Assembly: GCA_003024785.1 (NCBI GenBank)
Contig: PUQB01000054.1
Coordinates: 1-64,000, forward strand
DNA length: 64,000 nt
Source of the DNA: Selaginella tamariscina
Lineage: Eukaryota; Streptophyta; Lycopodiopsida; Selaginellales; Selaginellaceae
Direction: 5' to 3'
Position 1 is the stretch's first letter, and each line of letters starts with the position of its first letter. Below, piece by piece: positions 8,860 to 57,900 of this stretch. Below the pieces are notes generated by a model. It was given only the letters and a program-made list of their open reading frames with translations, was not told where the DNA came from and made no database searches. Both the position numbers and the translations under genes were made by a program.

Positions 8860-9955
8860 CCAAAGAACTTGAAGAGGCCTGCAAGCTCCATATTCTCCCC
8901 TCGACACCCAGGGGAGGGAAGCGTACTAAATATGAAAAATAAACATACATACAATTGACATCGTAGTTAGAGCTTTCTCTCTCACGCGCACACACGGTGT
9001 ATAAAATAATGGTGAACAATAATTAAGTTATGTTACTAATACAACTGCTAGTCTATGGTTTGAAAAATCGAACTGGGGCAAAAGACCGCCTCTCTCCTCC
9101 GCCAAAGTCTAGGTATTCAACCTTCCGCTCTTGGCACTTTCCTCTTAATAGCAAGGTGCCCGAATTATGTCCCCAGGCTTAAACACTGGGAAGTTAGGCC
9201 TCTTTAGGGCAGCCTCTTCCCTTGTCCATTTCACACCCTTAATCAGAGTGTCTTTAGTTTTAACGAGGGGAGCCTTCACGTTGTCTTCAGGCCTCTTTAG
9301 GGCAGCCTCTTCCCTCCTCCGTTTCACACCCGCGTTAACCAGGGGAGCCTTCACGTTGTCTTCAGGCCTCTTTAGGGCAGCCTCTTCCCTCCTCCGTTTC
9401 ACACCCGCGTTAACCAGGGGAGCCTTCACATTGTCTTCAGGCCTCTTTAGGGCAGCCTCTTCCCTCCTCCGTTTCACACCCTTAATCAGAGCGTCTTTAG
9501 TTTTAACGAGAGAGCCTTCACGTTGTCTTCACTAGGGGCTTGACCCTTAGGTGCAATACTCTTCCGTCGGTCATAATCCTACTTATGCATTTCCCTTCCG
9601 CCATTTCAAGTATAATGAGGTAGGGTTGTATTTCACTTGGGTTTTATGGTAAAATAAAAAGGTAATAGTGTCTCTGGAATATTCTTAGATTCCGTTAGGG
9701 TTTCATTTACCTTTATCGCAAGGTAAAATAAAAAGATAATGTTTGTTCACCAAAGTAATAAAACATTTCTTAAGAATATTTTTAGATTCATGGTATTCTT
9801 TTAATATTCTTGTTTTCACTCATATTCTTCTATTCTTGCGAATATAAAAAAGGCTTGGTAAATTAAAGAATTACTTTATATAATGTGTACATAAGTGCAA
9901 CTTAAAAATTTTAAAGTTAAAAATTATGTTAATGTTAAATTCATTATCAATATAA
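8860..9955 (-). repeat. Dispersed Lys/Arg-repeat family, copy B
   Basis: A longer copy of the family at 5345-6185. On the minus strand, at about 9145-9530, it carries four copies of the unit containing KRRREEAALKRP, with EDNVKAPLV between them, followed by NFPVFKPGDIIRAP. The unit count differs between copies (two in A, four here, one in C), so the coding tandem has expanded and contracted independently. The distal part (about 9600-9955) matches the beginning of copy C in inverted orientation. Confidence 0.75.
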
Positions 9956-19201: not shown

Positions 19202-19416
19202 AGCTGCTGTTGTGGTGCTCGAATTACATCATTTTAGTAAATTCTGTGCCGGAATAAATCTGCTCCAATTTGCAGGATTATATAGAGAGTACCTGGTAGT
19301 GCGCTCCCATCCATAGCCTAGAGCGCGCAGACTAACCTAAAACCTAATACCGTTATGCGAATCTGTTGATTATCCACTAGAATATCCACTTAAACCCTAA
19401 ACCCTGTTGTCAATGG
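19202..19416. promoter_or_regulatory. Divergent promoter region with telo-box
   Basis: 215 bases separate the start of the minus-strand gene at 19201 from the PPR start at 19417. About 25 bases before the PPR ATG lies TAAACCCTAAACCCTG (about 19393-19408), a double plant telo-box (AAACCCTA), a known promoter/5' UTR motif of growth-linked genes. TATATAGAG lies near 19280. Confidence 0.5.
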
Positions 19417-20803
19417 ATGAGGAGAGGATACGCTTCCCTGTCTGGAAGGCAGGCATTTCGCAAGGATGCGAAATTCACGACAGAGTTCAAGCAGGCAGAT
19501 CTCAAGGAGATCGAATCGAGCAAGGAGCCACTGGATGTGGGAAGCTATGCCTCTCTCCTTCGCCAATGTAACAATCCGGGATCTCTGAATGCAGGCAAGC
19601 ATATACACACCCACATTTCGAGGTTCACGAGAGATCCAGGCACATTTCTGAGCAACTTGCTTGTACAGATGTATGCTAACTGTGGTAGCCTTGGTGAGGC
19701 AAGAGCTGTGTTTGATAGGATTGCACACAAGAATGTATTCTCCTGGAACATACTCATTGCTGCGTATACCCAGACCGGGCATCTGCAGGAAGCCAGTATT
19801 CTCTTCGAGAGAATGATGGAGAGATCATATCACCTGGACGGCACTCATGAACGCATATGCAGGGAGTGGGAACCTCTCGCAGGCAAGGGTTTTATTTGAT
19901 ATGATACCACAGAGAGATGTAGTGACTTGGTCCACTATGATTGCAGCGAATGCCAAGAAGGGGCATCTAGATGAAGCACAGCTCTTGTTCGACGAGATGC
20001 CTCTGAAGAACATTGTTGCATGGACTGCTCTTCTAACTGCGTATGCACAGATTGGACATGGAAAGAAGGCGGTAAGTCTCTTCAAACACATGGAGCTGGA
20101 GGGGTTGAAAGCAAACGACGTAACTTTCCTGTGTGTTCTTGATGCATGCTGCTGTCCGGTGAATCTCTTCGAGGGAGAGCTGTCCATTGCCGACTACTGG
20201 AGACAGAGTTTGTTGATCAGCTCAAGATCGGGAACGCCCTCATCGGGATGTATGGGAAATGCGGTAGTTACCAGGACGCCAGACACGTGTTTGACACAAT
20301 GTGTCGGAGAGATGTTGTGTCGTGGAATGGCTTACTTGAGGCGTATGCACAGAACGACTTGAAGAGCTTCGTTCCAGGGATATACAGACTCATGGAACTG
20401 GATGGACAGTTTCCAAACGAGATTACATTGATAAGTGTGTTATCTGCATGTAGCCATGCCGGTTTACTGGACGACGGATATCAGTTTTTTGCTTCGTTAT
20501 ATGACTATGGTATGGTTCCTGCAATTGATCACTATGTTTGTATGATCGATCTCTAGGAAGAGTTGGAGATATTCTTGGTGCCATAGATTTTTAAAGAATA
20601 TGCCTTATTACCCCGATGCCGTTGCTTGGAGAGCCGTGCTTTCTGCATGCAAAGTCCATAGAGAGCTTCAGCTTGCAGCTCATGCTGGGGAAGCTGCACT
20701 CGAGTTGGATCAACTGCACGCAGGGTCTTATCTGCTGGTCTCTAATGCACTTCACGAAATCGAACAGTTGGTAAGGAAAGCCAACTTGTTGTTTGGGAGA
20801 TGA
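19417..20803 (+). CDS. PPR protein, PLS/E-type
   Basis: Pentatricopeptide repeat protein, probably an organellar RNA-binding factor. N-terminal MRRGYASLSGRQAFRKDAKF is Arg/Ser-rich and could be a targeting peptide. Repeats seen include LLVQMYANCGSLGEARAVFD, NVFSWNILIAAYTQTGHLQE, DVVTWSTMIAANAKKGH, NIVAWTALLTAYAQIGHGKK, IGMYGKCGSYQDARHVFD, VLSACSHAGLLDDGYQFF, and an E-like motif PDAVAWRAVLSACKVHREL, then AGSYLLVSNAL. No DYW domain follows; the frame ends inside a tandem repeat. Frame slips occur near 19830 (two bases short), 20150, 20555 and 20590 (one base short each). It is either a recent pseudogene or carries base-drop errors. No introns. Confidence 0.8.
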
Positions 20804-20955
20804 CAAGTCAAGCACAAATTATCATAATCGAACAGTTGGTAAGGAAAGCCAACTTGTTGTTTGGGAGATGACAAGTCAAGCACAAAGTATGATAATCGAA
20901 CAGTTGGTAAGGAAGGCCAACTTGTTGTTTGGAGATGACAAGGCACAAATGATAA
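20758..20955. repeat. 67-bp tandem repeat, three units
   Basis: Units beginning AATCGAACAGTTGGTAAGGA start near 20758, 20826 and 20893, the last one shortened. The first unit codes for the end of the PPR frame (IEQLVRKANLLFGR and stop), so the array has replaced or duplicated the gene's 3' end. It abuts the stop of the converging PPR gene at 20969. Confidence 0.88.
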
Positions 20956-20968
20956 TGGTTTTTAAGTT

Positions 20969-22747
20969 TTAACAAAACCTGTTGATATCCAAAAACTCAT
21001 CATTCTCTTCTTCTTCATCTCTGGTAAACATGTTTGAGAAGAGCACATAGTTAGCTGAAATCTTGGAACAAACACGAACTGCATGAACAGCAATCCTTGC
21101 GGCTCTGTCCAGATCCCCATGAGACCCACACGCACTGAGCAAACACGTCCAGCCAGCTTCATCAGGCTCATAAGGCATGTTCCTCATCAGATTCTCACCG
21201 TCTTCAAGCTCCCCAGTTCGCGCTAACAAATCCACCATACAACAGTAACAATCTGCATCAGGCTCCATACTGTAGTCCTCCAATATGGAGTGGAAATGCA
21301 GCTTTCCCTCGTCAACAAATCCCCCGTGGCTACATGCTGCCAGCACGATTATGAACGTTACCAGCGTTGGTGTTACACCTTCGAGTTGCATATTCACATA
21401 TGTAGCTAGTGCCTCCTCTTCCATGCTCGCTTTAGCACATGCTCCTGTTCATGTTATGTGTGAGCTCTCTCTCTCTCTCAACACACACACAACACGCACG
21501 CACACGCACCTATCAAGACGTTCCAAGAGATGCATCAGCAGGACTCTGTTCAAACACTTTCTTGGCATTAAGAGCGCTACCACATCTGGCATACATGTTT
21601 AGGATAGCCGCTTTGAGAACTCTGTCCTGCTCATATCCACCAGCTACAATCCGTTCATGTATCTTAGTTCCCTCAGCCAGAGCCTCCACGCTGGAGCAAG
21701 CATCGAGCAAGCTTGAGAGCACAATAATGTCCGGTTTCACACCTTCATGCTCCATTCTGTGAAAAAATATAGAGCTTTCTCACCGTATCCGTGCTTTGCA
21801 CATGCCGCAATCACAGAGCTCCATGCAACTTTGTCCCTGTGAGCTATCTTGTCAAACACTTGGAGTGCATCTAACGCCCTCCCCGTCCTGGACAACATGT
21901 TCAAGAGCGCAGTCTGCACGAGGCAGCTTGTCGATCAAGTCCTGTTTCCTCTGCACACTCATAGATAACTCTACATTCACCCGGGTCACCAAGAGTTTCG
22001 TATGCCCCGATCACACTCACGAGTGTGACTTCGTCTCCTCGGATGCCTTCTTGGTCCATGACGCGGAAGAGAGTTATAGCTTCCACAAAATGCCCATACT
22101 GGGCATATCCACATATCATTGCAGTGTACACATACCGGTCCCTGTTACACATTCCATCGAACGCAAGCCTCGCTTCGTCGAGGCACCCACACTGGTTATA
22201 CATGTGTATAAGTCCTGCCCCGACGAATACATCGGACATGTATCCTCTGTCGCGTATCACTATGCTTACGGCTCGTCCGATTGAGATTGACTCGAGAGTA
22301 CAGCAAGCACCGAGTAGAATGCTACAGACGTAATCTGAAGGATCGGTTCCGTCCAGAAGAAGCTTTCTAAACAAGTGTATTGCCTGCTGCAGATGCCCAT
22401 TCTGGGCATACGCCTTGATCATCAGTGTCCAAGTGAACTCGTTCCTTTGAGGATTGTTTCGAAGAGGAGTGTTGCGTCCTCTATTCTGCCACACTTGCCA
22501 TGCATGTCCAGGAGGAAATTGAGAACGTACCTGTCTGACTTGAATGGGCTTCTGTGAATGTATTCTGCGAGGCGGATGCCCTCTGTGAGAGCTCTTTCGT
22601 GACCACATTGCTTGATGAGATGGAGTATGTGTTCCTTGCTTGGCTCGGTTCTGCCCTGTGGAGTAGCTCGATAGCTTCTGACCATGCCTTGGTTTGTCCT
22701 TGCGCTATTGATGCTAGTGTTCTCCTGCCCTGCGATGCTCTACTCAT
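20969..22747 (-). CDS. PPR protein with a microsatellite intron
   Basis: Second PPR gene, converging on the first. Read from 22747: MSRASQGRRTLASIAQGQTK, then repeats FLLDMHGKCGRIEDATLLFE, FTWTLMIKAYAQNGHLQQAI, HMYNQCGCLDEARLAFDGM, VYTAMICGYAQYGHFVEAI, ALLNMLSRTGRALDALQVFD, VAWSSVIAACAKHGYGEKAL, AAILNMYARCGSALNAKKVF, and an E-like end (PDEAGWTCLLSACGSHGDLD). Near 21433-21511 a GTGCGTGTG...CAG intron splits ISWNVLIG|ACAKASMEEE; it consists mostly of TG and GA repeats. Several frame slips (near 22690, 22450, 21910, 21760 and 21540) mark it as decayed or error-bearing. No DYW domain. Confidence 0.78.
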
Positions 22748-23329
22748 CCATAAGTTTGAAAAACAGAACGCCTATATGCGTGTAGGATGTCGTATGCGTG
22801 TACTTTGTGTGCGTATAGGTTGTCTATGTACGTGGGTGCGTGTCCCGTGTGTGTGCGTGAGTAGGTTGTTTATGCATATGTTTATTATAAAATAAGATTC
22901 ATGATAAAACAAAAATTATAAAAAAAAAAATTCAAAAACTTCTTGGTATAATTACATTTTACCTTTTAAATATATTAAATAAAATTTAATTTAATACATG
23001 TAAATTATCTATGTGAATTATATTTGAATTGTACACTAACTTTAATTTAGTACACCTACATATGAATATTTATAAAATAAACCAAGTTAATACCATATAT
23101 ATATATATGAAATGGGAGCGCAGGCTGCTAATACAGGAAATATTAAACCTTAAACCCTAATATAATTAAATATAAAATATTACTAATATAATTAAGTTTT
23201 CTACTAACGTTTGTTAAACTAAAATGCGACGAAATTTGAATTAGATATAATAACGGTTATGTACCTTTAAAATATCAGGCGCAAATTTAGGTTCGAAATC
23301 TAAATGAACGGCAACTCCAGTTAGGGTTT
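22748..23329. other. AT-rich intergenic region
   Basis: A (TG)n-rich tract (about 22780-22860), then AT-rich DNA with AAACCTTAAACCCTAATA near 23142-23160. Upstream flank of the CDCA7-like gene. Confidence 0.5.
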
Positions 23330-23348
23330 ATGAGGTTAGGGTTTACAG
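23318..23348. promoter_or_regulatory. Paired telo-boxes at a 5' end
   Basis: AGTTAGGGTTTATG and GGTTAGGGTTTACAGG lie just before and over the start region of the CDCA7-like gene. TTAGGGTTT is the inverse of the plant telo-box AAACCCTAA. The role is inferred from known plant promoters. Confidence 0.45.
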
Positions 23349-23350
23349 GC

Positions 23351-26300
23351 ATGAGCAGCTTCGATGAAGAACGGATAGTCAATCCGCCCAAGAAACTCTC
23401 ATATTGCAAAGATGAATCCAACGAAGAATGGGGCATTAAGAAGAACAGATCCTCACTGAAGGCAAGTAGCACAGATGAATCCAATAAATGGCGTAAGAAG
23501 AAGAGATCCTCACATTCAATCGTCAAGGCGAGTAGCGGAGATGAATCCGATGAGGAACGGGCGATCGTCACATCGGAGCCGCCGAAGAAGAAGAGGCGTA
23601 CGGATGCAGGTGTGAGATGGGTTGGGGGCAAATTGTATGATTCTAAGCTCGGGGAGACCTGCCATTGGTGTCGTCAGAAGTGTGTGGCGGATCATGTACA
23701 TTGCTCGAAGTGTCCAATTCGATTCTGCAGAGGATGTCTTGCGAATCGCCATGGCGAGGTCATCAAGGAACAAATGCGCCAAGGTATCAAGTGGGTTTGC
23801 CCCAAATGTCGTGGTGGATGTGGCGTCGGATGCGAAACTAACTGGTATGTGCATTTCCCTTTTTTTCTGTGCCTTCCAAATATTGGGGTTCTTTTTTTTC
23901 TTCTCTTTTCCGCTCACATTTCTAGCATACAAAGCTGTTTTATCAAAGAACCGACTTTTATTAATCTTTTCTTCATTTAGCAGCGGTTATGTTATTTAAC
24001 AGTCTAGTCTGTACATTCTGCCTCATATGTTTCTTACATAACATATATCCTATTGTAAAAAACCTTTTGTGAAAACAAAAACCGACTGTAAGAACAAGAA
24101 AGATAATTGGTTGGTCTATATCATTACTTACATATATTGAAGTGTTTACTTTCTTCTTGCAGTTGCAACTGCGGGCCTTGCCGGAAACTGCAGAAACTGG
24201 AGCCTACGGGTACGTATTCTTTACGTATTTACCTAGGCATATTTTTATCAATTTATATTTCTATCTAGTTTCATATATGTGTGTGTGTGTGTGTGTGTTC
24301 ATACGTTTTAATTGATGTTATGATAACAGGACAACTGATACGGAGGCGAGAGCTTGCGGATTCAACAATATACACGATTATTTAATATGTCAATTGACGG
24401 GCGAACCACGTGAGGAGATAGAAAAGCGGAAAATCGGACGAGGATGGGTGAACGAAGATCCAAATGCATTTTGTTACGATATCACTATAAGGGTCAAGGC
24501 GGAGAAGGCCGAGAAGATTGATTCGGACTCCGATATGAGTGCTGTAAGTATAATTATTCATGTTTTAGGCTTAAATATTACAGATATTTCACACACACCG
24601 CACGATAATATTACCATCTCTCTTTCTTTCTCTCTGATCTAGCTTCCTGGATGGTTCTTCGTTGTACAAACATAGCTTTAGATCCCTTACAGTGCAATGT
24701 GTTACATACTTTATAATAGTTTCAGATATCTCAATGTTCAGTTTATCTTTACCAGAAAAGAATGCGGGGGCAATTGACGGGAGTTATGTTAAGTCAACAT
24801 TTGTCGCAGCAAGAGGAAATCCAGAAGTTAAAGGTCAAAAAAGAGCCGGATATGGACTTTACTTTTACAAAGGTGTGGTAAATACATATATAATATCTAT
24901 GCACATTATAATATATAGAGTTATGCACATATGTGCATATATGCGACCGTAAGGTGAATTTAGGAGTGCAGATTTGTTGTAGACATTCAACATACATAAA
25001 ACTCGCAAGTCATATGTGCATATTTAGGTGCATACATAAAATATACATATGGACGTTTTTAACTTCGTTAAACAGGAAAATTTGGTAGATGAATACGCTG
25101 TTAAACAGTCACAAGACAACGTTCAGAAGATCATTCAAGATAAGTTGAAGAAGATGAAAAATGAAGAACCAATTACCGAACCCGCGTTTATGCTCTGCGA
25201 AAGGTATGTGTGCATCTGTATAGGCATACATTAGAGAGAGAGAGAGAGAGAGACAAAGAGACAGACAGACAGACAGACACTTCAAATGTGTACCCTACCA
25301 CGTGATTAAGAAGATTTTACCGTGTAGAAACAAACAGGAGCCCGTTGTTATGGATGAATGCGAACGCTTGCCTCCTCTCGTCATAATGGAAAAAGAGGAC
25401 ATGCACGCACCTTTAGAAGCTCTCACCAAAGGTAAGGAGGCATACATAAACATAAATATGAATAATATCGATGTCTTACATAGTTCTTCTTCTTTCCTTT
25501 TAAAAGCTGAGATTGAAACTGAACCTGTGGAAGCTGAAGTATTAAAGGAGAAGGAGCAGCAGATTTTTCAAGTTAAGCAAGATATCGAGACAGCTCAACC
25601 ATCTCCTTGCAAAGTTACAGGGGAACTCATATCTGATTATTGTTCTCCGGTACGTGCGTGCACCCGTGTTAGTGTGTATGTTCTCACATGTCTATATATG
25701 CATACAAATTTTGAACTGGTCACACATCGAGATAGAGAGTTTGTATGTAACACATTAAATATATTTTACATATATATGACCGTATCGGCTTGATGTTTGT
25801 CTATTAAGTACATATAATGCATGTATATAGCATGTTGTGAGCACCCGCATCTGTTTTTAAGCTGATATTCTTCAGGTTAAGAAAACGTCTGTTCAAATTA
25901 AACAGGAGAAGATCGATCAAAACGATGGAAAACAGAAGACGGCGGAGGTGGTATGTTTTTGTGTGTATATACATACGACTTCCGTAGTGTCTTAAAAGTT
26001 TGTGTCCGTGTGTGTGTCAGAGAGAGAGAGAGATTTATGTGTGTGCTGATAAATTTAATATTATGCAGCTTATGCAAACCGCTTTTCAAGTTAAACAGGA
26101 GAAAATGGATCAAAATAAGGGTAAACAGGAGACGGTGGATCAGAACGAGAGAGCACCAACAAGGACTCTGAATAGGAATGAGGTGGAAAAAGAGGCCAGC
26201 TCATCTTCTTCTGAGGAAGAAGAGGTCAGCTCGTCTTCTGAAGATAATGACGAAGAAAAAGAAGACTATGATGATGACGGAGAAGATGATGGGGAAGAAG

Positions 26301-39357: not shown

Positions 39358-39366
39358 TCGCTATAC
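39358..39366. repeat. Target-site duplication, left (MULE)
   Basis: TCGCTATAC, repeated exactly at 48283-48291. Nine bases is the usual Mutator-superfamily duplication length. Confidence 0.9.
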
Positions 39367-39415
39367 GGGTTGACATTTCCTCGAGCGCAGTTTGCCGAGC
39401 GTACGGATTTCCGTC
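39367..39415. repeat. MULE terminal inverted repeat, left
   Basis: Starts GGGTTGACATTTCC. It shares TCGAGCGCAG (39381-39390, 14 bases in), CGAGC and GATTTCC with the complement of the right end, in the same order and spacing. The repeat is imperfect over about 45-50 bases. Confidence 0.75.
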
Positions 39416-39421
39416 ATACCG

Positions 39422-39469
39422 GAATATTCCATTCCGTACAGAATATTCGTTTTCATATAAAGAATATTC
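39422..39469. promoter_or_regulatory. GAATATTC cluster, left subterminal
   Basis: Three copies of the 8-bp palindrome GAATATTC, at 39422, 39441 and 39462, spaced about 20 bases apart, with CCGTAC words between them. They could be sites for the transposase or for the methyltransferase/ParB protein. This is inference from position only. Confidence 0.45.
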
Positions 39470-39671
39470 TGGTGCGGCGGGCGGGCAATCATGGCGGCAC
39501 GGTAATGTGTCAAAGTTTCACAAATTTGGGGGTTAATCTGACATATATATTTATATATTTATATTTATATTTATGTTTTTATTTTTTTAATATTTATATT
39601 TATAACTATAATTATATTTTTATATAAATACCAGCATCAAACTAAATAAAAACAATAAAAACATAACTCAA

Positions 39672-42600
39672 TCATGAAGACTCGTTTCCACCAGCCAGTG
39701 CCTCGTCGTTAATGAATGCATTGTTACGGTGTCGTGAACGTTTCTCCAAAATCTGTCTGTCGTAAACTTCGAACTCTTCAACCATTTTCTTTGCCATCTG
39801 ATTAGCGTAGTCTGGTAGAACAATACTGAAAACATATTAAAGTTTAAAACCAAAGAAATGATAAAACAAATCTCACTCATCATCTGATGACTCGTATGAT
39901 CTCTCTTCTGCTGACTCATCTGATGACTCGTCGTTGTGCTCCACGGACTTCTCCGTAACAACATCCTTGTCGTTTCGAGAAGGCGGATCCTGGTCTCCAT
40001 CGTTGTCGCTAGCCAAAGGCAAATCCTGTGCTTCTGTTTCCATGGCCCTCTTCCACTCATCAAAAGGAGTAATCATGGAAACAACTTGATCATCCCCACC
40101 ACCTTCAGCTGCTGTAACACTTGGAATGACCTTCCTGAAGACATCTCTGGCTGCTAAAACCAGATCCTTGTTGATGTCGATTCCATAACCATGTCTCCCT
40201 GTGTGAAAAGCTGCAAGAATACTAGCACCGGTTCCCACTGTTAGATCCACAACAGTTCCACCAGGCTTTGTGAGCTTCTCCACTAGCATCGCAAACAACT
40301 TGGGAGATTTCGGGCCAATTGAAATCCTGAAAGTTACAATATTAGAACATGAGAAATAACAAACAACATTATACCATGGGAGCTGGAAATCTTCTGGCTC
40401 ATCAAAAAGAAGAGTGTAGCGAGTGTCCAAGATCTCCTTGTTCTTGGCAACCTTAGAGTAGGGGGAACCAAAAATACACATGGCAATGATGCTTTCCTGA
40501 AAAAATAAACATTAAAAAATGACATTCTCAAAAAGAAGAATTACCTTTCTAGAGAAACGGTATCCCCATGACTTTGTCGTGTGCACATAACTCATCTGCA
40601 GAAACTTTAGCTTGCAAGTTTCTGCAGTGTTCTTCAAAGCTAGAACATCATCCGGTAGCACAAACACTACCACATGGCCAGCTCTGTCTAATATCCCGAA
40701 AGCAAGGTTCACCAAGTTCTTCAGCAAAGCATCCGAGAACTTCGTGTATTGATCCACCATCCCGCCTGCCTCAGCAACGCATCCGGTAGGCGGGTCGATG
40801 ACAACGAGATCAACAGCTCCCTGGATGCATTTTGGTGGAGGCTTCGCACCAAACACATGAATAGTCCAACTTGACTTGTGACTCACGATCCAATCCTCAA
40901 GCTCCTTCAATCCTGACGGAAAAGGCCTTCCGGCTTTGAAGTACTGGACTGCAAGGTTCTCTGAATCTGCATGAATGATTTCCCAGCTTCCATTTCCCTT
41001 CTCAGGCATCACCATCCTCAACATATCATCTTCTTCCAATCCAGCCGAGATGAAGGATGGGGCTGAAGAAGAAGCTTGTCCCTTGCTGACCTTGCTCGCC
41101 GATCTAGCATACCTGATATCCATCTTCACATGGAGCTTCCTTGCAGCATTGTCGTTCTTCCATAATAGCTCTCGCCGATCATCCTTGTGTATCTTATAGC
41201 TGGCCATCTCCCATTCGGGACAGTCACCAGGAAGGAAATCCAGCCAGAAAGGACAGTGTTCCACTTCGTAATCACTGATATCACGTAACAACCGGCTCCA
41301 CATGCTAGAATCCTTGGTAACATCCATCCACTCTTTGAAATCTTCAGGGAGTGCATCGTTCTTCCATTTTAAAAACCTGTAAAAATAGATAAAAATCTGT
41401 AAAGAAACAAAAAAAAAACTTGCCTGAATGCCATTCTTTTTGCAGATTTTTCCAGCTCAAATAGTCGAGGAGGTGGAATTGTCGCACCGAACTCCTTGTT
41501 CTCGAGCATGTTCTGGTACATATCCAACTTAATTTCATTGTGCATCTTCATATACCATGTCATGAACTCCTCTACATGCTCGACCAAAAGCTCTTTAGCT
41601 GCCTCCGCGACCTGGCACGATAAAACGAATAAAAATGAAAAATATAAATATTAAATTACCTGGAACCAGTAAGTAAAGATGTGCAAAAACTTGATGAAGT
41701 CCTTGTCAGGCCAGCCGGTGACACCTTCCTTCTTGTCTTTCTCCGTCATGTTCACCAGCTTCTCAAGAACGCCACGTTCTTGAATGTGCACAAGCTTTCC
41801 AAGGATATCAACCTTGACGTTGGAAGGAAGCTGGGACTTCGCGAGCATTTGAAGCTTCTCCAGAGTTATTTGCTTCGTTGATGGTTTGATAGTGATATCT
41901 GTGATCGCCTTGAACCAATCTTCACCGACCGCCGGATCAGCAATGGTGAGGAATTTGTTCATCCGAACTGTGAATGTCTTGTAAACGCTGGAGAGGATCT
42001 GAGATTCTGTCTGGTTTGGTTTTCTGTTCGCAAGTTTTGTAGCGATTTGTCGCTTCAGTTGATTCTGCAAAAGAAACCGAAAATCAAAAAAAGTCAAAAG
42101 AAGAAGAAAAGATTACCTCCCAAAAAATCTTCACCAATGTCGTCTTTGGATACTCGTACCAAACGTCTTCTTTTCTGTTCGATCTCCACACTTCCACAGC
42201 TTTTCTATCTTCCTCCGGCATCCCGCGAAGAACATGATCGGTAGAAAGATCTGCAGACTTCACACAACAATTCCGTAAGAACTGCAAGGTGTGAATGATT
42301 GTTGTAGGAACCACACGAGCAGTTGCTCTGCAAAACAAAACAACATTTATTTAGTATTTAAATAATGAAACAAACAAGTCACTTACTCATTCAACCGATT
42401 GCAAGCAGCGATTAGTCTCTTCTCCTCTTGCACTGTGGATGCTATGAGTGTTGCACGTACACGCAAAGTCCATTTCAAACCTGGCTCTTCAGCAAGCAAA
42501 GTGTTCAAAGCAACCCGACGATGATTCCCATCCCACACCAGAAACTTTGCATCTTTCAGAAATCGATACCATGCAGAAAATGCTGGCTTATGCAAATCCG

Positions 42601-43303
42601 CTTCAAACTCTCTATCGACCTGTGCTTCTGACTCATTCCAACTTCGGCGTTCGTCTGCACTCAGCTGTGGTCCGAAAGATAAGGTGAACACTGACGTCTC
42701 CTGGTAAAATCCTTCAGCTCTAATCCATCCAACAAGGTCTTTCACGCCGTCCTTAGTGACATTCCTCAAACGTTGGTGTGGGAGCAACCTGTGAACCGGG
42801 ATACGCGGAGGCTCACCAAGCTCAACTGGAACGTAGTGGTCTCGTCCTTGTAGCGATGTGTCAATATCTGTGTCATACCGAATAACAAGATCCCGAAGAA
42901 GCTTGGATGGAGCCTCAAGTGTCAGCCGCTCCGGAATTGCATATGATTCGGCAACATCCTCAGGAGCATCCAGTTTCCTCTTCTTATTGAACATTTTACT
43001 ACCAAGATCAATATCCGGTACTTCCTCTGCATTACCGTGTTCTGCAGAGCTTCCTGCAATCTCCCTATTTCTAGGCATCCATTCACTCACCACAGTATGT
43101 TCATCAATGACTTGCGAACTATCCACAGGTTCATTGTTCGTCGGCATCATCTCTTTGTGTTGCAGTTGTTGCTTGGCGCCTCGGCCTCCTTTCTTGCCAC
43201 GAGGTTTTGGAGCCATATCTGCAAGAGCTTCTTGGACGATATGTTCTTGAAGTGTCAAAGTCTTGTATTTATCTCGTAGTCTCTTACTCTGCCTTTGTCT
43301 CAT
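39672..43303 (-). CDS. ParB-like / amino-DNA methyltransferase fusion
   Basis: Eight exons (43303-42387, 42327-42117, 42064-41660, 41611-41424, 41376-40545, 40496-40375, 40326-39877, 39825-39672) join in phase to 1,092 residues. About residues 155-300 form a ParB/sulfiredoxin-like domain (IPVHRLLPHQRLR, VWDGNHRRVALN at about 256-267). The middle is helical. A permuted, beta-class methyltransferase domain follows: catalytic motif IV first (VVIDPPTGC, D768-P-P-T771), then after about 150 residues the SAM-binding motif I (KPGGTVVDLTVGTG, D919...G923-x-G925) with YGIDIN. DPPY or SPPY is usual for N6A/N4C enzymes; Thr here is atypical. The C-terminus is Ser/Asp/Glu-rich. The intron after exon 4 starts with GC. 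Lys/Arg-rich start (RQRQSKRLRDK, PRGKKGGRGAK) suggests nuclear entry. Proposed role: marking the element's own DNA. Confidence 0.85.
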
Positions 43304-43636
43304 TCTGCAATTACAACAACTGATAAGTGTGTGTGTGTGAGTTGTTTTAATTTATGGACACACATTTACTATATATGTATACCTATCAATATATATAGAC
43401 ACACACGCACACACACACATATTTATACGTGTAATGTTGTTTGTGTGTGTGCTCACTATATAATGTTCCTTGTGTATGTGTGTAATGTTGATTATGTGTG
43501 TGTGTGTGCAATGTTGTTTGTGTTTTGTGATGTGTCTGTGTGAGAGAATATGGGTATATTCATATCTCTTCACATGTATATACAGACGAAAAAGCATCAT
43601 CTCATATATACAAGTCTTAAATTCATATACTTATAC

Positions 43637-43689
<53 letters not shown>

Positions 43690-44696
43690 TTTTAAGTATG
43701 TATTTAAATATATATATTTATATTACACACACACATGTATACAAGTCTAATGTTGTATAATCATACGTGTGTAAAATGTTATTTATGTGTGTGCGCAAAA
43801 ACACACACACACACACACACACGGATTTCCTGCCCGAATTGGCAGGAAATGTGTGTGTGTGTGTGTGTGTGTTTGCCGAAATCGGCAATAACTCATGCGT
43901 CGGAGGTGTGTGTGTGTGTGCACACGCGCGTGCGTTTGTGAATACAAAGAAATCCTACTGAATTTGCACATACATTCACAGAAATTACTATACACATATA
44001 TAAGATTTTACCTGTAGCCATGTCGCCGTGACGCTCACACTAGCCTCTTGTCGCCGCAAAAAAAAGAACAAAAGTGCCCTCTCTCAACAATGGAGAATGG
44101 AGAAGAAGAATGGGTAGTCCTGAACCTTTACCCTAAAATCTAACACTTAACCCTTTGACCCTTAACTATAAAACTGTGTTTAATTAAACCATACAACAGT
44201 ATATATAATACTTACGATAAATAACATACTATATAAAAGGATACAAATACAAACACATATTTAAGTAAAAATTTGTATGTTAAAAAACATATTATTATAT
44301 AATTAAATAAATATTCGTGTAAAAATATGTATTTATAATTGACAATTGGTAGCGGAGCAAGTATTAATCAACATCTACATTTGATAAAATACTGGATCAA
44401 ATAACTATATAATTATAATAAATAAATTAACAGAATATAAACAAGTCATAAATAAATATGTCAGATGAATGTAGATTAGACACACATTTATTTAAAAGAC
44501 AATAAAGATTGCTCTATCTCTACGTGAAGTGCTATACTATATTAGCATCTAAGATCTATACGTTTCCTTGAATTAAATATTCGCCCACGTTGAGTCATGA
44601 TTGTGAATTTTTGAAATGGTAATATCCGATATTTACCAAAAGATGATTAAGTAATGCTGTTGTTTTTCTGTCACGTTTGTGGTAACTGCTTGCAAA
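43304..44696. promoter_or_regulatory. Divergent promoter region of the MULE
   Basis: 1.39 kb between the two start codons. It holds (TG)n and (AT)n tracts (AT run 43649-43684), a large hairpin at 43800-43872 and AT-rich DNA. A likely 5' UTR intron of the methyltransferase gene runs from a donor at 44011 to an acceptor next to 43305 (ATTGCAG). The upstream exon, on the minus strand, contains a short ATG frame. Confidence 0.5.
43800..43872. repeat. Long hairpin built on AC/GT runs
   Basis: (AC)11, a GG bulge, ATTTCCTGCC, loop CGAATT, GGCAGGAAAT, (GT)11. The inner 10-bp stem is perfect and the outer 22-bp dinucleotide arms are complementary. A second small stem, TTGCCGA-AA-TCGGCAA, follows at once. 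Confidence 0.85.
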
Positions 44697-47600
44697 ATGG
44701 CCAGGATTGTTTACGGCAATTTGGATCACGATGTTCCTGTGATAGATGGTGTTGGAATCATTCTTACTAATCAGATTAGAACGTTCTTTGGCATTTTTGA
44801 TTGGCAAAGTGTTCGTCTTTTTAAACTTCTTCATGGGCAATCTGCTTTACAGATCGAAATAAACGAGGACCAAGATGCTGGAGGGAAGGATAATCCAGGA
44901 TATGTTTTGTTACCGGATGAAGGACCATTGTTTAAGCTTGTCGTTGCTTCTGACTCTGAATACTCAACGTTGAAGAACCTTTTCACTTCTAATACCTGCA
45001 AAAAGGGAAGAATTCTTATCGAGGGTTCCACGATCATTCATACAAATGAATTGCCTATTGCGTATGATGGGGATGTCATTTTTGAGCTCCCTCCTTCCGA
45101 ATACAAATACAAAGGAATGAATCGGAAAGAGGATGGACATACCTGGACAGCAGGAACGACCAGCAACTGGAATTTTCAAGCGAGGGTGTCCAGGAGCAAA
45201 TGTGTTGGGAGCCTTTGCTGTATCAACCCGGACTGCCCTGCTTCTAAGGCAGGATTTCCGAACTGCACTAAATGGAAAGGATGTATTGTTTCCCCACCTT
45301 CAATCGACAAACTGGCAAAAGGATTGACATGTTTTTTCTGTAAAGAAAATCCATTGTGCCTTGAAGTTTGTCATGCTGTGGCGTTTTGCGTTTTCCCAGA
45401 CGACATAACCAAGACTAGATTGTTTATCCACCAGGGAAAACATTCACATCCAGTGGGTGATGGTGTTTCTGCATCGAACAAAGAAGAAATGCATATGGCG
45501 GTCCAGAATGCAACAGAAAGAACTCCCAGAGCTAGTCCAAGAGTCATCGAAATGGCAGCATGTAAAGATGCTATCTTTGGTTTTCTATTAGATAATTCTG
45601 AGCCTGGAAGTTGGGATAAGCTCATGGATCATTTGCAACCATTATCAAACAATCGAAGGTACAATTAGAGTTTTACTTTGTGCTGAGCATTCTTTGATAA
45701 TACCTTTGATGCAGAGTTCGTCAATGGGTAGCGTCCGCAAAGAGAACTGCTGCTGAAATGCCAGAGAATATTGATGGATTATTGGAGCTGAAACGAAGGT
45801 TGTCTATCCCATTCATCCACGTGATTCACTATCCTGGGATGAATTTCCGTGGTTCAGACGACCAGGCATTAGTTTTTAAGATGACGGTTTCAGGGCCAGG
45901 TTCTGGAATCGATTATGTAAGGATGTGCCAACCTCCTCTTGGCCCTTTGCAGAAGAGTTGGGTTCTACTTGATCACACACACCGTGTTGTTGATAAGTGG
46001 ATCACTCTGGCATTGCATGTTTACGACCCAAAGTAAGATGTTATCTTTTTGTTGTTTGCTTAACTCTTTGATTATTTTATAGTGTGCGCCGATTATCCAC
46101 CATTGCTTATGGTGACATGAAGAGACAAACGGCTGGAGCTGTGGAGAAGTTTTTTCGTGCTATGTTGGATGTCTGTTCCGAGAAGGGAATCTACAATGTG
46201 CAGTTCGCTGGGTTTATGTCCGATGAAGCAGGAGCGATCTGGCAAGCAATTAGGAATGTGTTCTTTAATGGCCAAGAAATTCCTGGACGTGAACGGAGCT
46301 GTATCTTTCACTATGAACAAGCCATACAACGTGTGACAAGGAAGTGGGTCCCTCTTGAACATCAACAACAACATCTTCAACTTTTGAGATCATGGCCAAC
46401 AGCCACATCAACAACTGATCGTGAAGAAATTGAAAATAATCTTTTCCGCTTTTGGAATGAAAATGTGAAGGATGTTGGAGTTATGCAGACGTGGTTTTCA
46501 TGGTGGGAAAGACAGAAGAATCATATTTCAAATGTTGTTCTTGAAAGCATGCCGGAGAATGCTGCAAGGGTTGTGCCCATGACAAACCAGTCGGAGTCTG
46601 TTCACGGAAGATGGAGGAGGGCTAGAGATTCAAAATACATTTCATTGTACCAAGCTACAATCCACGACCTGACTGAATCAGTGCGACAATGTGCTCTTGT
46701 GAAGGCTTTTAGAGATGGAAGGTATAGTGGTTCCGGGCCGACTTCAGAGGAGCTCTCAGCAAGGTTCGAGAGAAGAATGTCAAATGCTAACTCAACAACA
46801 CCTACAGCAAAGGTTATCATCGACTTAGTTGAAGATGTTGCTCCATCAAGCATGCAGGATACTGCTTTTGTGGCTGCCACGAATGTTGAACATCGCACTG
46901 TGCAAAGAAATATGGGGTCAGAGGCTGAACGATCCCACCGACCGGACATCTTCTATAGTGAACAGGTTATTCCAACACAGTGTAGACGGAAGCGACGATT
47001 GGATTTTCAACTTGCAGAAGAACATGAAGAATATGTTCTGGTTGAAGAACAAGATGTTACACCTGGACAATGGGCGATTAGAAGATGTGGTGAAAGAAGT
47101 TCTGTGAAATGTCTGGCAGGCTTTCCCTCTTCAGGAGGTCAGTGGAGTGCTTGTGACAAAAAGATCAGTCCTAGTGGTAATCGAGTGGCTGCTCCTTGTT
47201 TTTTTGGAAGGATCAGATACAATGACAAAGAAACTGGTGAAGAATGCTTTCGCTCACAAATGATGTATTTTTGTCCAACAAACATGCTTTGCAACAGACA
47301 TCCAAGACCAACTATTGTTTCTCCGCCAGCTTCTACCTCGGTTTGGAAAGTTCAAGTGGGCACGAAGCTGATAGCAATGGAGATCAATGATCTGGCAAGA
47401 TCAGGTTTTATGCTAGCTGGGCTTCCTTCAGCTCATGCAGGAGTGCCAGGTTTTTCAACACCTCATGTTCCTTCAGTTCCTGTTGGAGTCACTGGATTTT
47501 CAACACCCCCTGCACAATTTCGTGGACCTCCTGTTCCTGCAAGTGGTCGTGCAACAAGAACACCTTTAGGGATGTCTAAGAAACAACAGGTAAGTTTTGA

Positions 47601-47916
47601 AGCATGTTTGACGTTGGGAGCATATGTCGCAGAAGTTGACGTGGTTGATCCTCCAACATGCATTCGCTTCAGAGTATGTGACAACGACCATACATCTGCT
47701 TGGGTTGTCATTTGTAGCGCACCATCTTGTTCATGCTCGGAGTTCTGCAATGGTCGTCAGTGGGTGCCTTGCAAACATATGTATTTTGTTTACAAGCGTG
47801 TACTGGGAGCTGATCCTCGAGTTGTCAAGCATTTGCAACGTCGTACACTTGCACCCCGTGAACTAAGTTCTTTATTGATGCTACCAAGGAACCTCCATCC
47901 TCCACCATCTATTTAG
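44697..47916 (+). CDS. MULE transposase with extra zinc domains
   Basis: Three exons (44697-45658, 45715-46032, 46083-47916) give 1,037 residues. Residues about 168-251 are a Cys-rich domain ending IHQGKHSHPV (C...C...H-x-H), like the WRKY/GCM-type DNA-binding domains of MULE transposases. The catalytic core shows WVLLDHTH (D407), GFMSDEAGAI (D474) and CIFHYEQAI (C500-x2-H503), as in the MULE DDE family. A second Cys-rich block follows (WAIRRCGERSSVKC, YFCPTNMLCNRHPRP) and then a SWIM finger CSCSEFCNGRQWVPCKHMYF (C976, C978, C990, H992). The start at 44697 is the first ATG; the frame has no breaks. The enzyme cuts and pastes the element through the inverted repeats. Its start faces away from the methyltransferase gene. 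Confidence 0.87.
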
Positions 47917-48094
47917 TGTGTTTGGTTTGTTTTCAAACAGCTTCGGTTTTATATTTGTTATTTCAAACTTATAATTTTCAATATAAATTTTAATGGTAAT
48001 TTTATGTTTAGCATATTTTTAAGTAATTTAACATATATTTTCTTTAAATACAACAAAAATATACTACCATATTTTGTATGCGGCCGCCGCACTA

Positions 48095-48232
48095 GAATAT
48101 TCTAGAATATTCTTGAAAATTTTGGAAGGTCCAATTGTGTGTACACTTGGCAGTACGAAAAATTTCCGTACAGAATATTCGAGGATATCTAGACGGAAAT
48201 CGTACGGAACAACGGAATATTCAAGAATATTC
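48095..48232. promoter_or_regulatory. GAATATTC cluster, right subterminal
   Basis: Five GAATATTC palindromes at 48095, 48105, 48173, 48215 and 48225, interspersed with TTTCCGTAC and CGTACGGA words. This mirrors the cluster at the left end. Confidence 0.45.
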
Positions 48233-48282
48233 GGAAATCTAGGTCAAGCTCGTTGACCTGCGCTCGAATTTCGCCGTGCCCC
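48233..48282. repeat. MULE terminal inverted repeat, right
   Basis: Ends CGCCGTGCCCC. CTGCGCTCGA at 48258-48267 is the complement of the left-end TCGAGCGCAG and lies 15 bases from the terminus (14 on the left). Confidence 0.75.
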
Positions 48283-48291
48283 TCGCTATAC
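48283..48291. repeat. Target-site duplication, right (MULE)
   Basis: TCGCTATAC, identical to 39358-39366. Confidence 0.9.
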
Positions 48292-48804: not shown

Positions 48805-51800
48805 TGTGAGAGCTCAGAATATAAAAATGTGTATATCCATTAGTTCAGAAAACCCTAACTTATATACAAGAGCGAATGGTCCAGATTGAATCCAATCCGA
48901 TGGTTATCAAAATTCACTATGCTAATAATAGTATGTGCACATGTAGCCATACACGTGGATCTTACATTATCCCTCCTCTCGGAAGGGTGTAAGTTGTTTA
49001 GGGTTCTCTTGTAGATGAGCCCGGATCTGGAGGAACATTAGGAGGAGGCACTGGTGGATCTGTAGGCGGCACAACTTATTCCTGTTGCACAAAATACTTC
49101 AACTATTGCACATGTACAATCTCCGGAGGATCGGGTTGAATGTCATGCCGAACCTCATAAACCTGTGGCCCTACTTGCCATAGCACTCGATACGGTCCTT
49201 TCCACTGAGGAAGGAGACTCTTAGCTAAACCACGTACCGTAAGCTTGGGGAAACGAACCAACACCAGTTCATCAACCTTGTACTCCACAGGAGGACGATG
49301 ATGCGAGTTGTAACGTTGTTATTGTCTTACTTGTACGCAGCCCAAGTGTTCTGCTGACTCCGCACGAACCAATGGAAGAATGCTCGTCAAATACCGATCC
49401 CATGACCTAGCATCAGCAACTCGCAATAACCGAGAAGGCAAACCCAACTCCGTTGGCAACATCGGGTCATGACCATACAAGAGCTTATATGGGGAAGTAC
49501 CAATGGAACTTTGAACTCCAGTGACATAAGCATATCGGAGAGATGGCAGATAACCATCCCAATTTAAATGTTGAAAGTTCACATACTTCACGATCATCCC
49601 CTTGAAGGTTTTGACAAGCCGTTCCACTAAACCATCTATCTGAGGATGATAAGCACTTATGAAAGTGTGGCGTATCCCTACAAAACATGAAATGCAGGAC
49701 CATTATCCGAGAGAATTCGCTCTAGACAAGAATGCTGAAACACAACCCGATTAAGGAGAAACTAACCAACAGTAGAAGCAATTGCACTAACAAGAGCACC
49801 AACTTCTACCCAACGAGTTAGGTAATCAGAAGCAATAATAACGTACTCGTTGCCAGTAGTTGATCACGGAAAAGGTGCCATCAAATCAAATGCCACCAAC
49901 TCAAATGAACGAGAAAACTGCAATGGACTCCAACCGTCCTTCCGAAGCACATGGGGGAGTATTGCGAGCTTGGCACCACACACAGCTACGCACATACCGA
50001 ATCACATCTTCTCGCAACTCTGGCCAATAGAAAGATCTGCACAGCTTCTCCATCACCCGACGGTGTTCCATGTGCCCGCCAAGAATAGGAGAGTCATGGT
50101 AAGCATGGAGGAAGCGTGGAACGAAGACTGAAGGCACCACCAACCGCAATGGATCATCTGGATCAGTCCTCACAAAATAAAGAAGGTCATCTTAAAGGCA
50201 ATACTGCGAATGTAAATGCCTGAAAGGCAAGTCATCAGCAAGTGATGCAGGGTTCTCAAACCCATCATGAAGCCTTCGAATCCACAGCTCAAGCTTTTGA
50301 GCTTCCTGAACCTCATCTAAAGATGGCAAATCTAACTCTGCATTCTGCGGACACTGAATGTCAAGCACAGCAACTGCTGATGGTATGGAATCTTCGTCCA
50401 AAAAGTCCATTGAAGCTGGAACAATTAGTTCCTCTGAGGCAACAGAAGAGAGAGAAGGTGGAAGAGGAGCCCGAGAAAGAGCATTAGCATCATCTATGAA
50501 ACTTCCTGGGCGATGAACAACTTCAAAGTCGTAAATTTGAAGTTTCAAGGCCCACCGAGCAGTACGACCAATCAAATTCTTCCGCTTCAACAACAAAGTG
50601 ACTGCTGCATGATCACCTTCCAACAACGTCTGCGAACCATGCAAGTAGGCATGGAACTTCTTAAAACCCCAAACTGCTACTAGACACTCCTTTTTTGTCG
50701 TGGAGTAATTCACCTTTTGCTGGCTGTAATGTACATAATGTACGCAATGGGATGTCGTTGGTCAGGAACACTCGTACTCTCCTACATCAATACGCCCCCA
50801 AGGCCAATGTCAGAAGCATCTACACGCAAGATGAAAGACGGGTGTAATCCGGGTATGCCAAAACTGGAGGAGTAGTCAACAACTCTTTGAGATCTGCAAA
50901 TGTCTGCTTGCAATCCTTAGACCAAACAAAAAAAGTCAATGACAATTTCAACAATGCGCGCAACAGTGCAGTACGATCTGAAAGATGATCCACAAAACGA
51001 CCCAGATATTGTACCTTGCCAAGAAAGCATTGCACCTCATTCACACACTTTGGCGTAGGGAACTTCAAAACTGCAACCAGTTTGTCAGGATCGACTTGCA
51101 AACCTTCACGTGAAATGCGATAACCCAAATAAGTAGTGTCCTTTGATCCAAACACACACTTAGATGGCTTCAACTTCAAACCAACTTCCCACAGCCGATC
51201 CAAAACCTTACGTACATCACCGACATGCTCCTCCCACGTTCCATCCGAATGGATCAAAACATCATCGATGAAATTGGCAGTCACCTCCGGCATGTCGCAA
51301 AGAACCTCGTCCATCATACGCTGGAAAGTTGCTGGAGCATTGCTCAAACCGAAAGGCATCACCAAGAACTCATACAGGCCAAATGATGTCCGGAAAGCAG
51401 TCTTGGGAATGTCCATGTCAGCCATCGGAACTTGCCAATATCCAGATGCGAGATCTAACTTGGTGAACCAACGGCTCTGCCCCAGTCGATCCAAAAGGTC
51501 TACAGTATGAGGAAGTGGGTACACATCTGAGACGGTTACCTCATTTAATGGGCGATAGTCAATGCAGAATCGAATGTTCCCATCAAACTTCGTCACGAGG
51601 TGAGGTTCGCACGCCCAAGGACTCCGAGATTTCCGGATAACACCCTTCTCCAACATCTCTTTGACATTCGCTCATAAGATCTTGAACTCCTTTGGTGACT
51701 GACGCAGAACAGGTACCTTGATTGGCCTAGCATCTCCAGTTGGAATAGGGTGGCGTGTCGCAATCTTGACAGCACGACGATCATCTGATGGATCCAAAGA

Positions 51801-54994: not shown

Positions 54995-57900
54995 TGTTAT
55001 GACCCATATAATGAATTAAAGAATATTCCTCAGAAAGGTATAAGTCAGAATATTTCTAAAGAGCTATACCTATATCTAAGAGAATTAAGGGCACCCTAAT
55101 ATATTGGAAGCCTTTTTGGAGAGCAGCGTGTGGAGACTAGAGACAGCTCAAGGGAGGTCGGATGGTTTGTGAGGGTCTCTAGTTTGTATGTAGTGGTGCT
55201 TAACAATTGGTATCGGAGCAAGATTCGAGATGAGCAACCGACCAGTGGGAAGGAGAGGATAATACCACTTGTGTGGAGATGTTGGACACTGAAAGGCAAA
55301 TTGTCTGAGGAGCAAGCCCAAGGGCAAAAGTTTTAATGGCAGCAAGGACAAGTAGATGCCTAAGAAGCTTCAGGAGATGGAGCGTGGAGAGGAGCACAAA
55401 GGAGACTTCTCTAGACAATGAGGAGCCACACACATGTGCTATTGTGGTGGAAGGACAACTTGGTGAGTGTCCAATGCGAGTCCTTGTGGATAGCATGAGT
55501 AGCAATAACTTTATGTCAACAAAGTTAGTGAAGGAGTGCAGCTTGCCCATGAAGATTGTGCCTCAATATGAGATTGAGGGCTCAGTTATCACACAGAGCT
55601 ACAGTGCTTGTGTGGAGAAGTTACAGCTGGAGGTTGGCAAAACCTAGTTGGTGAAGTTGCATGAAGACTGTGCCTCAATACGAGATTGAGGGCTTAGTTA
55701 TCACACATAGCTAAAGTGCTTGTGTGGAGGAGTTACAGTTGGAGGTTAACAAAACCAATTGGTGGAGCTGCATGAAGACTATGCCTCAATACGAGATTGA
55801 GGACTCAGTTGTCACACATAGCTAAAGTGCTTGTGTGAAGGAGTTACAGTTGGAGGTTGGTTTTTAAAACCCAATTGTGGAGTAGCATGAAGATTGTGCC
55901 TCAATACGAGATTGAGGGTTCAGCTATCACACATAGCTAGAATGCTTGTGTGAAGGAGTTACAACTAGAGGTTGGCAAAACCTAACTAGTGGAGACTTTC
56001 TTTCTTGCGGAGCTAGTGCGTGTGGATTTCATCCTTGGGATGAGCTAGTTGGAGCATGTGGATCCTAAGATCCAGTGGAGCACCAAGCACATGTATAGTG
56101 AAGTGAAAGACACTTGGTTTGGAACAAAGCTTGAGTCTCTAAACAAGTCTTTTACTGTCACCTTGAGTGAAGCTGTTGTGTGAGGAGTTTGCTGACGTCT
56201 TCCCTCTCGAGCTACCTCATGGCTTACCACTTGCAAGAGGTGTGGAGCATGAGATTGTGTTGGAATAGGGTACAAAAAACCATTTACTATAAGCCATTCC
56301 AACTGAGCCATGTTGAGGAGCAAGAGGTTAAGGATGGAGCTATTGGAATATGGCTTCATATAATCGAGCAAGTCTCCATTTGGTGCACCAGTATTGCTTG
56401 TCAGACGAAAGATGGCACCATGAGGATGTGCATAAACTACAAAGCTCTCAACAAACAAACAGTGAAGGGACAAGATGCCCATGCCACGTGTGGATACTAT
56501 CATGGATCATCTCGGTGGAGCCAAAGTGTTCACCAAGATAGATTTGCGCAGTGGGTATCATCAGATTGCTGTGAAGGAGGCAGATATCTACAAAACTTTA
56601 CTGGCGGGCATTTGTTAAGCCAAATGCATACATTGAACTAAAAATGCCCAGCACATTCACTCGGTTGATGACTGAGGTGTTTGGTGACTACTTGCATGAC
56701 TTTGTGGAGATCTTCCTCGACGATATTCTTATTTACAGTAAGAATATGAAGGAGCATGTGGAGCATTTGCGGAGAGTTCTTCAATTGCTGAGGGAGAACA
56801 AGCTCTATGCAAAGAAGAGCAAATGTGCATTTGCTCAGTGCGAAGTGGAGTATTTGGGTCACATTGTGACGCCAAGTGGAGTGAAGACTGATCCACAGAA
56901 GGTGGCAGTGGTGGAGCAATGGCCAGTTCCTAGCAATGCACAAGAGTTACGGAGTTTCTTGGGCATGGCTGGTTATTACGGCGGTATGTCAAGGATTATG
57001 CCAAGAAAGCTTCTCCGTTAACTAGGTTGCTAAGGAAGGACGTTCCCTTTGCATGGAGTGCTTCAGAGGAGAGCAGTTTCCAAGCTTTGAAACAAGCTTT
57101 GGTACGTGCACCAGTTTTATGTATTGCAGATCCCTCTAAGCCTTATGAGGTATCGTGTGATGCAAGTGGAGTGGCCATTGGAGCTGTACTTATGCAAGAG
57201 GGAAGGCCTATTGCTTATGAGAGTCGTACTTTGAATCCTGCAGAGCAACGGTACTCAACGTATGAGCAAGAACTACTGGCTATTGTTAATGCATTACGAG
57301 TTTGGAGGCACTATCTTTATGGTGCAAGTTTCAAGGTGTTTACAGATCACAAGCCTTTGGTGTATCTGTTCACACAGAAAGAGTTAAACTCTCGGCAAGC
57401 TCGCTGGATGGTTAAGCTCATGGAGTTTGGCGAATTTCCTATTGAGCATCGCAGGAAAGGCTAACGTGGTGGCAGATGCTTTGTCACGCGTTAGGAGAGC
57501 CACAGTAGTGGGAGAATTCCAAACACGCTTATGTAATGCATTAACAAGGACGGTCAGTGAGTTTAGCCAAGTAGTTCAACATGCTCAAGCACAAGACGCC
57601 GAGGTGCAGGAGCTCAAAGGACAGCTAAGCCACCATTCTCATTTCAGGATGGGTTTTGTACTACAATGGCCGTGTGTACCTTCCTGTGTGGACCATTTGA
57701 TCAACCAGGTACTATATTTCATCATGATCGCCGGAGGCTGGTCATTTTGGGGGGAAAACGTATGAGTTGATCAAGAGGAGGTTCTATTGGAGGAATATGA
57801 AAGCTGATATCATAGAGTACTGCAGACTTGTGACAAGTGTCAGCAAGTAAAGGTGCCCAGGGAGAAACCAGGTGGGCTATTAGTACCATTGCCTATTCCA

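Follow-up and report, generated by a model that had tools for sequence, protein, structure and literature searches.

Genes that combine a ParB domain with an amino-methyltransferase domain have already been reported as accessory genes in algal transposons, and the element described here is a variant of that arrangement. It is a Mutator-like transposon of the lycophyte Selaginella tamariscina, located within a stretch of 64,000 nucleotides (GenBank assembly GCA_003024785.1, contig PUQB01000054.1, positions 1 to 64,000 of the forward strand), which we refer to as the window, and it carries a transposase gene and a divergent gene for a predicted protein with ParB-like and methyltransferase-like regions, the accessory protein. 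The closest described system is Sola1-1_Ec32 from Ectocarpus, in which a protein of 1104 amino acids (aa) with ParB and N4-cytosine/N6-adenine (N4C/N6A) methyltransferase domains is encoded on the opposite strand from the transposase, and the accessible text of the same report also mentions similar proteins from green and red algal transposons (PMC12477816). The view of the initial annotation that no such fusion was known is therefore not supported. As in the alga, both domains reside in a single protein of about 1100 aa (1092 aa here), encoded on the opposite strand inside a DNA transposon, subject here to the domain caveats given below. The two systems differ in that Sola1-1_Ec32 belongs to the superfamily Sola1 and to a brown alga, whereas the present element is Mutator-like, has a 9-bp target-site duplication (TSD), resides in a land plant and is represented by no fewer than three families and by many copies; the comparison is with the published description of the algal protein. 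A literature search, with most subscription papers outside its reach, returned no title on a ParB-methyltransferase gene in a Mutator-like or lycophyte transposon.

MuDR with its mudrB gene is likewise an autonomous two-gene Mutator element that generates 9-bp duplications, but the MURB protein is not known to have a ParB or methyltransferase domain. VANC, an anti-silencing factor, also differs from the accessory protein in having no known methyltransferase domain, and the ParB-methylases of bacteria and phages are not known to have a transposase partner. Hiun, the Arabidopsis element of the VANDAL group that carries VANC, resembles the present one in being a plant Mutator-like element (MULE) with non-transposase genes, and VANC counteracts the methylation of its element according to the accessible part of the source (PMC6446971). 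Bacterial and phage ParB-methylases such as Bce_0392 of Bacillus cereus share the fusion of a ParB domain to an amino-methyltransferase (PMC5512222, as far as accessible); they are prokaryotic, and no close sequence relative was found in one scan each of a viral and a prokaryotic collection. N4CMT of bdelloid rotifers is also a bacterial-type amino-methyltransferase that acts on transposons in a eukaryote, but according to the accessible text its gene belongs to the host, and the protein has a chromodomain and retains SPPY intact (PMC8885841).

Borders, copies and gene pairing of the element

The transposon covers 8916 bp (39367-48282, GGG...CCCC), with borders placed where copies elsewhere in the genome cease to match, and is flanked by an exact 9-bp duplication, TCGCTATAC, at 39358-39366 and 48283-48291. 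The duplication encloses both genes, in agreement with the initial description of a complete transposon, and its length is within the 8-11 bp criterion of MULEs. The accessory protein was used to search the assembly (300,702,823 bases in 1391 contigs, the window being contig C882), and 98 matching rows were merged into at least 42 loci; this and all other copy counts are lower bounds taken from the matches listed. Among these matches, 32 of the 42 loci have a transposase in head-to-head orientation within 9 kb. The transposase itself was found at no fewer than 72 loci, 40 of them without a partner among the matches listed, and when the 10 best of these 40 seemingly unpaired loci were checked, the accessory gene was recovered at the predicted place in 8. 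A host gene with a transposon beside it by chance was considered and rejected on the basis of these two results. As anticipated, the accessory gene belongs to the transposon. The two genes recur together in other copies and in the two further families presented below, so that the lack of co-occurrence that the initial annotation had named as refuting its reading is not observed.

The copies were also examined for duplications of their own, the best-matching pair of 9-mers being sought no more than 3 bases from the junctions. Both flanks were viewed at 18 of the 42 loci, and 17 copies remained after C473, for which the right end was not found, had been left out. The duplication is exact in 10 of the 17 copies, of which 8 have the standard borders GGG...CCCC, and 12 match in at least 8 of 9 positions. 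In mismatched left-right pairs, used as a control, there were no exact matches among 272 and only two with 8 of 9 positions. A chance origin of the duplication, which the initial annotation had named as a way in which its reading could fail, is thereby ruled out, and the separate 9-bp duplications around most of the copies tested show that the element does move. The ends read GGGTTGACATTTCCTCGAGCGCAG and, inverted, GGGGCACGGCGAAATTCGAGCGCAG, with TCGAGCGCAG as the best conserved common motif (39381-39390 on the plus strand and 48258-48267 on the minus strand). The inverted alignment of the ends scores 38, as compared to a best score of 31 among 200 shuffles. The terminal inverted repeat is thus real, as claimed from the aligned motifs, though short and imperfect.

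A search with the left end recovered at least 40 places with 98-100% identity (the best 40 of 137 candidates), and in each of the first 10 copies retrieved the right end lay where predicted. Dozens of near-identical copies are present in the assembly. Two full-length copies, on contigs C1218 and C1097, encode an accessory protein identical to that of the window, with no internal stops, and transposases with one and no changes, respectively. Because these proteins are nearly unchanged, the amplification is probably recent and the element recently active.

With PF01555 as query, no fewer than 150 matches were obtained in this genome, and all 12 loci fetched from them were related to the accessory protein of the window (family A), forming two further families, B and C. 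The class of methyltransferase-like exons recognized by PF01555 looks very abundant in this genome (families B and C, L052-L067). In longer stretches, a transposase was identified beside the accessory gene in L064 and L066 of family C and in L065 and L067 of family B, with a head-to-head layout in both C copies and in L065. Reading the flanks by eye, we identified an exact 9-bp duplication, TTAAAGGCG, around L064, and a duplication matching in 8 of 9 positions around L066 when one border is shifted by a single base. The families are strongly diverged: identity to family A is 24% (C) and 25% (B) in the methyltransferase domain, 31% (C) and 32% (B) in the ParB-middle part, and about 34-61% in transposase segments. 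The residues WDGNHR, D.P, WGYR, PKS and GTG are the same in all three, and the intron positions flanking exon 6 agree by eye in A and C.

Identities at the three codon positions were used in place of the ratio of nonsynonymous to synonymous substitutions (dN/dS), dS not being computable between B and C, as expected near saturation. For the accessory gene, the identities at positions 1, 2 and 3 were 0.64-0.67, 0.69-0.75 and 0.38-0.39, and for the transposase 0.69-0.72, 0.77-0.80 and 0.36-0.37, as compared to 0.25-0.26 in shuffled columns. Since little similarity is left at third positions whereas the first two are conserved, both genes are held by purifying selection, and to a similar degree. 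Judged from these comparisons, the accessory gene has long belonged to the transposon lineage and has been maintained there by selection together with the transposase. The accessory protein therefore has a function in the element and is no passenger picked up by it.

Several observations weigh against this picture. An exact 9-bp duplication is absent from 7 of the 17 copies, and two of the ten exact cases (C169 and C484) need borders shifted by up to 3 bases. No transposase partner was found within 9 kb, among the matches listed, for 10 of the 42 accessory-gene loci. Two of the transposase loci checked also depart from the expectation: C158 retains only the last part of the accessory gene, beside the left end, and C336 has no accessory-gene match at the predicted places. 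A head-to-head methyltransferase locus is located about 11 kb away in C336, so that an insertion is possible. Also, the family B copies that were read are either broken (L065, in which the transposase is incomplete) or rearranged (L067).

Domains of the two proteins

The accessory gene (39672-43303, minus strand) was modeled with eight exons (43303-42387, 42327-42117, 42064-41660, 41611-41424, 41376-40545, 40496-40375, 40326-39877 and 39825-39672), head to head with the transposase gene, in line with the divergent eight-exon gene first proposed. The introns are 47-59 bp long, one of them with GC-AG borders; the exon models of both genes are predictions with splice sites picked by hand. The N-terminal region of the protein has a ParB/DndB-like motif, the middle region is conserved, and the C-terminal domain resembles amino-methyltransferases of the permuted type. 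The match to PF01555 exceeds the cut-off in family A (34 bits against 26.7) and also in family C, and PHROG 67, a DNA methyltransferase, aligns from motif IV to motif I with an E-value of 3.3e-9. The motifs are permuted as initially described, with motif IV (40785-40796, minus strand) before an intact motif I for binding of S-adenosylmethionine (SAM), DLTVGTG (40227-40247, minus strand), an order that agrees with beta-class N4C/N6A amino-methyltransferases. A profile of families A, B and C matched MboIIA (E 1.1e-5), CcrM (8.2e-5) and RsrI (0.002) in the PDB.

The catalytic motif [DSN]PP[YFW] is not preserved. It reads DPPT in family A and DLPN in families B and C, with no aromatic residue, so that methyltransferase activity cannot be assumed; the aspartate and the second proline are common to the three families. 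The alignment of this motif with DPPY of MboIIA is weak and not significant by itself. In the same PDB search, an N4-cytosine enzyme matched only weakly (E 0.061), and several non-DNA methyltransferases matched as well, mainly via motif I. No match was obtained in the sequence search with the full accessory protein as query. A search with the methyltransferase profile recovered one fragment of 135 aa, which covers 22% of the query at 93% identity, and two further weak matches named modification methylase.

The ParB-like region is recognized by the motif WDGNHR (42518-42535, minus strand), which is the same in the aligned sequences of the three families. No ParB family of the libraries matched, and the best library match was a short one to DndB around WDGNHR, below the cut-off and in one of five members (E 0.0012). 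The term "ParB-like", used for a domain in the initial annotation, is for this reason a motif-level reading of the sequence. In NCBIfam and PHROGs, the accessory domains matched methyltransferases and families without an assigned function, as well as DndB (E 0.027). A viral and a prokaryotic collection, each scanned once, yielded no relative of the ParB-middle part. Weak matches of this part to sulfhydryl oxidases in the PDB (E 0.28 or higher) were taken as chance and set aside.

The transposase gene (44697-47916, plus strand) is predicted to have three exons (44697-45658, 45715-46032 and 46083-47916) that encode 1037 aa. The protein contains the motifs D, D, CxxH and TNxSES and, near the C-terminus, a SWIM-like CxC...CxH. 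The 9-bp duplication, the order of the motifs and the SWIM-like finger make Mutator-like the best name for it, with reserve. PF10551 (MULE) matched a core piece of the family A protein over nearly the whole model, with E-values of 0.023-0.026 and scores of 15.4-15.6 bits, the cut-off being 27.6; such a match below the cut-off was obtained for one of 13 transposase members, and none for the full-length transposase or the family C piece. The protein initially described as a clean MULE transposase is thus Mutator-like by the duplication and the motif order but stays below the Pfam cut-off. A comparison with the MuDR-type copies of the genome by hhalign was colinear over 188 columns, including D, D, CxxH and TNxSES, but was not significant (E 0.057, probability about 1%), and an earlier profile comparison with MULE copies was likewise not significant. 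The SWIM zinc finger was matched by the family C piece with an E-value of 0.0041 (17.1 bits, cut-off 19.6) and by family A with an E-value of only 3.3, despite the presence of the CxC...CxH residues. In NCBIfam, the transposase gave an E-value of 0.058 with MspA porin and of 0.11 with IS256 transposase. A search with the transposase profile identified 11 fragments from public assemblies with the source tags lgn and ena, 32-59% identical and without precomputed Pfam names. MULEs without terminal inverted repeats have been described (PMC6446971, accessible part).

Palindromes and the proposed role of the accessory protein

The palindrome GAATATTC occurs three times at the methyltransferase-side end (39422, 39441 and 39462; region 39422-39469) and five times at the transposase-side end (48095, 48105, 48173, 48215 and 48225; region 48095-48232), which gives eight copies in the two 250-bp ends and none in the interior. 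In 2000 simulations, the ends contained 0.2 copies on average and at most 3. The palindrome is found near the ends in all three families; in two copies of family C, the array begins 46-60 bp from each end, and at least two sites are located beyond the methyltransferase gene in all 12 sampled loci of families B and C. A second family C transposase end, inverted and about 700 bp from the first element, was observed in L064 (9120-9901), with GAATATTC at 9203.

The divergent intergenic region of the element (43304-44696) contains CA/TG and TA repeats and the palindromes ATTTCCTGCC-CGAATT-GGCAGGAAAT (43825) and GCCGAAATCGGC (43875). Between the divergent genes of L066, a family C copy, the promoter region (3916-4600) contains eight perfect AGTCGGCATGCCGACT palindromes with a spacing of 39-40 bp, and the family B copy L065 has repeated GTCGGC half-sites between the two genes. 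The palindromic iteron array of L066 recalls the parS clusters of ParB. The second C copy has a single perfect AGTCGGCATGCCGACT palindrome, and family A has its two other palindromes in place of the intergenic array of B and C; hence, the proposed intergenic operator is not general.

We consider it very probable that the accessory protein is an element-borne factor under selection. A specific action on the element's own DNA appears fairly probable, while real N4C/N6A methylation by the protein would be doubtful. Taken as a whole, the data may best be explained by a selected accessory protein of an autonomous element that acts on the element's own DNA, a reading in which we would place reasonable confidence. 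The ParB-like and middle regions could recognize the element-borne palindromes, in the intergenic array of B and C, in the terminal GAATATTC sites, or in both. The methyltransferase-like domain would bind SAM and either write a base mark or serve as a SAM-dependent regulator, and the outcome could be control of the expression of the divergent genes, of silencing, or of the assembly of the transposition complex.

The initial annotation had suggested active self-methylation, in which N4 of cytosine or N6 of adenine is modified at sites of the element so as to counter silencing or time transposition. This is possible, and we propose it only tentatively. It is consistent with the intact motif I, the shared motif IV aspartate and second proline, and the PF01555 scores in A and C, and the authors who described the algal proteins suggest, in the accessible text, that these may bind and modify their own transposon (PMC12477816). 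The fourth residue of motif IV argues otherwise, being T or N here as compared to Y, F or W in the forms SPPY, DPPY, NPPY, DPPF and DPPW; a change of SPPY to APPA abolished the activity of N4CMT (PMC8885841, accessible part).

A regulator that binds SAM and DNA would fit the sequences equally well. The domain would then be a pseudo-methyltransferase, comparable to METTL14, that binds SAM or DNA without methylating and acts as a sequence-specific co-factor of the transposase or as a repressor of the divergent promoters. We regard this, too, as a tentative option. The aromatic residue of motif IV is missing in three diverged families in which other residues of the fold are conserved, and family C has a palindrome array between its divergent genes. 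A pure scaffold would be expected to lose motif I and the aspartate of motif IV, but both have been retained.

It is improbable that the ParB-like domain is a nickase that aids excision or repair, with the methyltransferase domain serving for targeting only; a ParB-methylase of B. cereus is reported to nick DNA via its ParB domain (PMC5512222, accessible part), but the likeness here is at the level of motifs. Quite improbable is a role of the terminal GAATATTC repeats as heat-shock elements (GAAnnTTC) for heat-induced expression unrelated to the accessory protein. GAATATTC fits the heat-shock consensus, and some of the repeats are in tandem, but most sites retain the central TA (across 14 loci of families B and C, GAATATTC accounts for 54 of 63 GAAnnTTC sites, though for 3 of 5 in L065 and L062), and the repeats are located at the ends of the element while the genes start in the middle. 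Plant MULEs often capture gene pieces, but chance capture of a host or bacterial passenger gene is very improbable here, given selection on the accessory gene together with the transposase in B and C, the exon borders around exon 6 common to A and C, and the absence of a free relative in the viral and prokaryotic scans.

Under the preferred reading of a selected protein that acts on its own element, a bolder version can be formulated: vascular-plant transposons might possess their own DNA-marking or centromere-like module, in which the ParB-methyltransferase loads onto palindrome arrays, spreads or marks, and averts host silencing or licenses transposition via the non-canonical DPPT/DLPN site. 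We consider this version unlikely. If the protein does mark or bind its own element, transposons of vascular plants would carry an epigenetic tool of prokaryotic type and would offer a direct test of whether N4-methylcytosine or N6-methyladenine is present and functional in land plants. The proposal is testable by virtue of the many near-identical copies, the three diverged families and the built-in candidate binding sites. If a relationship between the algal and the plant proteins were established, the combination of ParB and methyltransferase would cross transposon superfamilies and reach land plants, and this would suggest a reusable accessory module.

Surroundings of the element in the window

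Reading frames with pentatricopeptide repeats (PPR), which are typical of plants, are located on both strands at 19381-22704, with a piece of a zf-4CXXC_R1 protein nearby (23291-23977). Bacterial contamination was considered and rejected, in view of the PPR frames and retroelement pieces in the window, the introns with borders common to A and C, and the lack of a relative in one viral and one prokaryotic scan. No Rfam family matched in the window at the gathering score. To the right of the transposon, retroelement pieces with reverse transcriptase and RNase H were identified at 50823-51671 and 56934-57461, and a reading frame at 49319-49702 appears integrase-like by eye.

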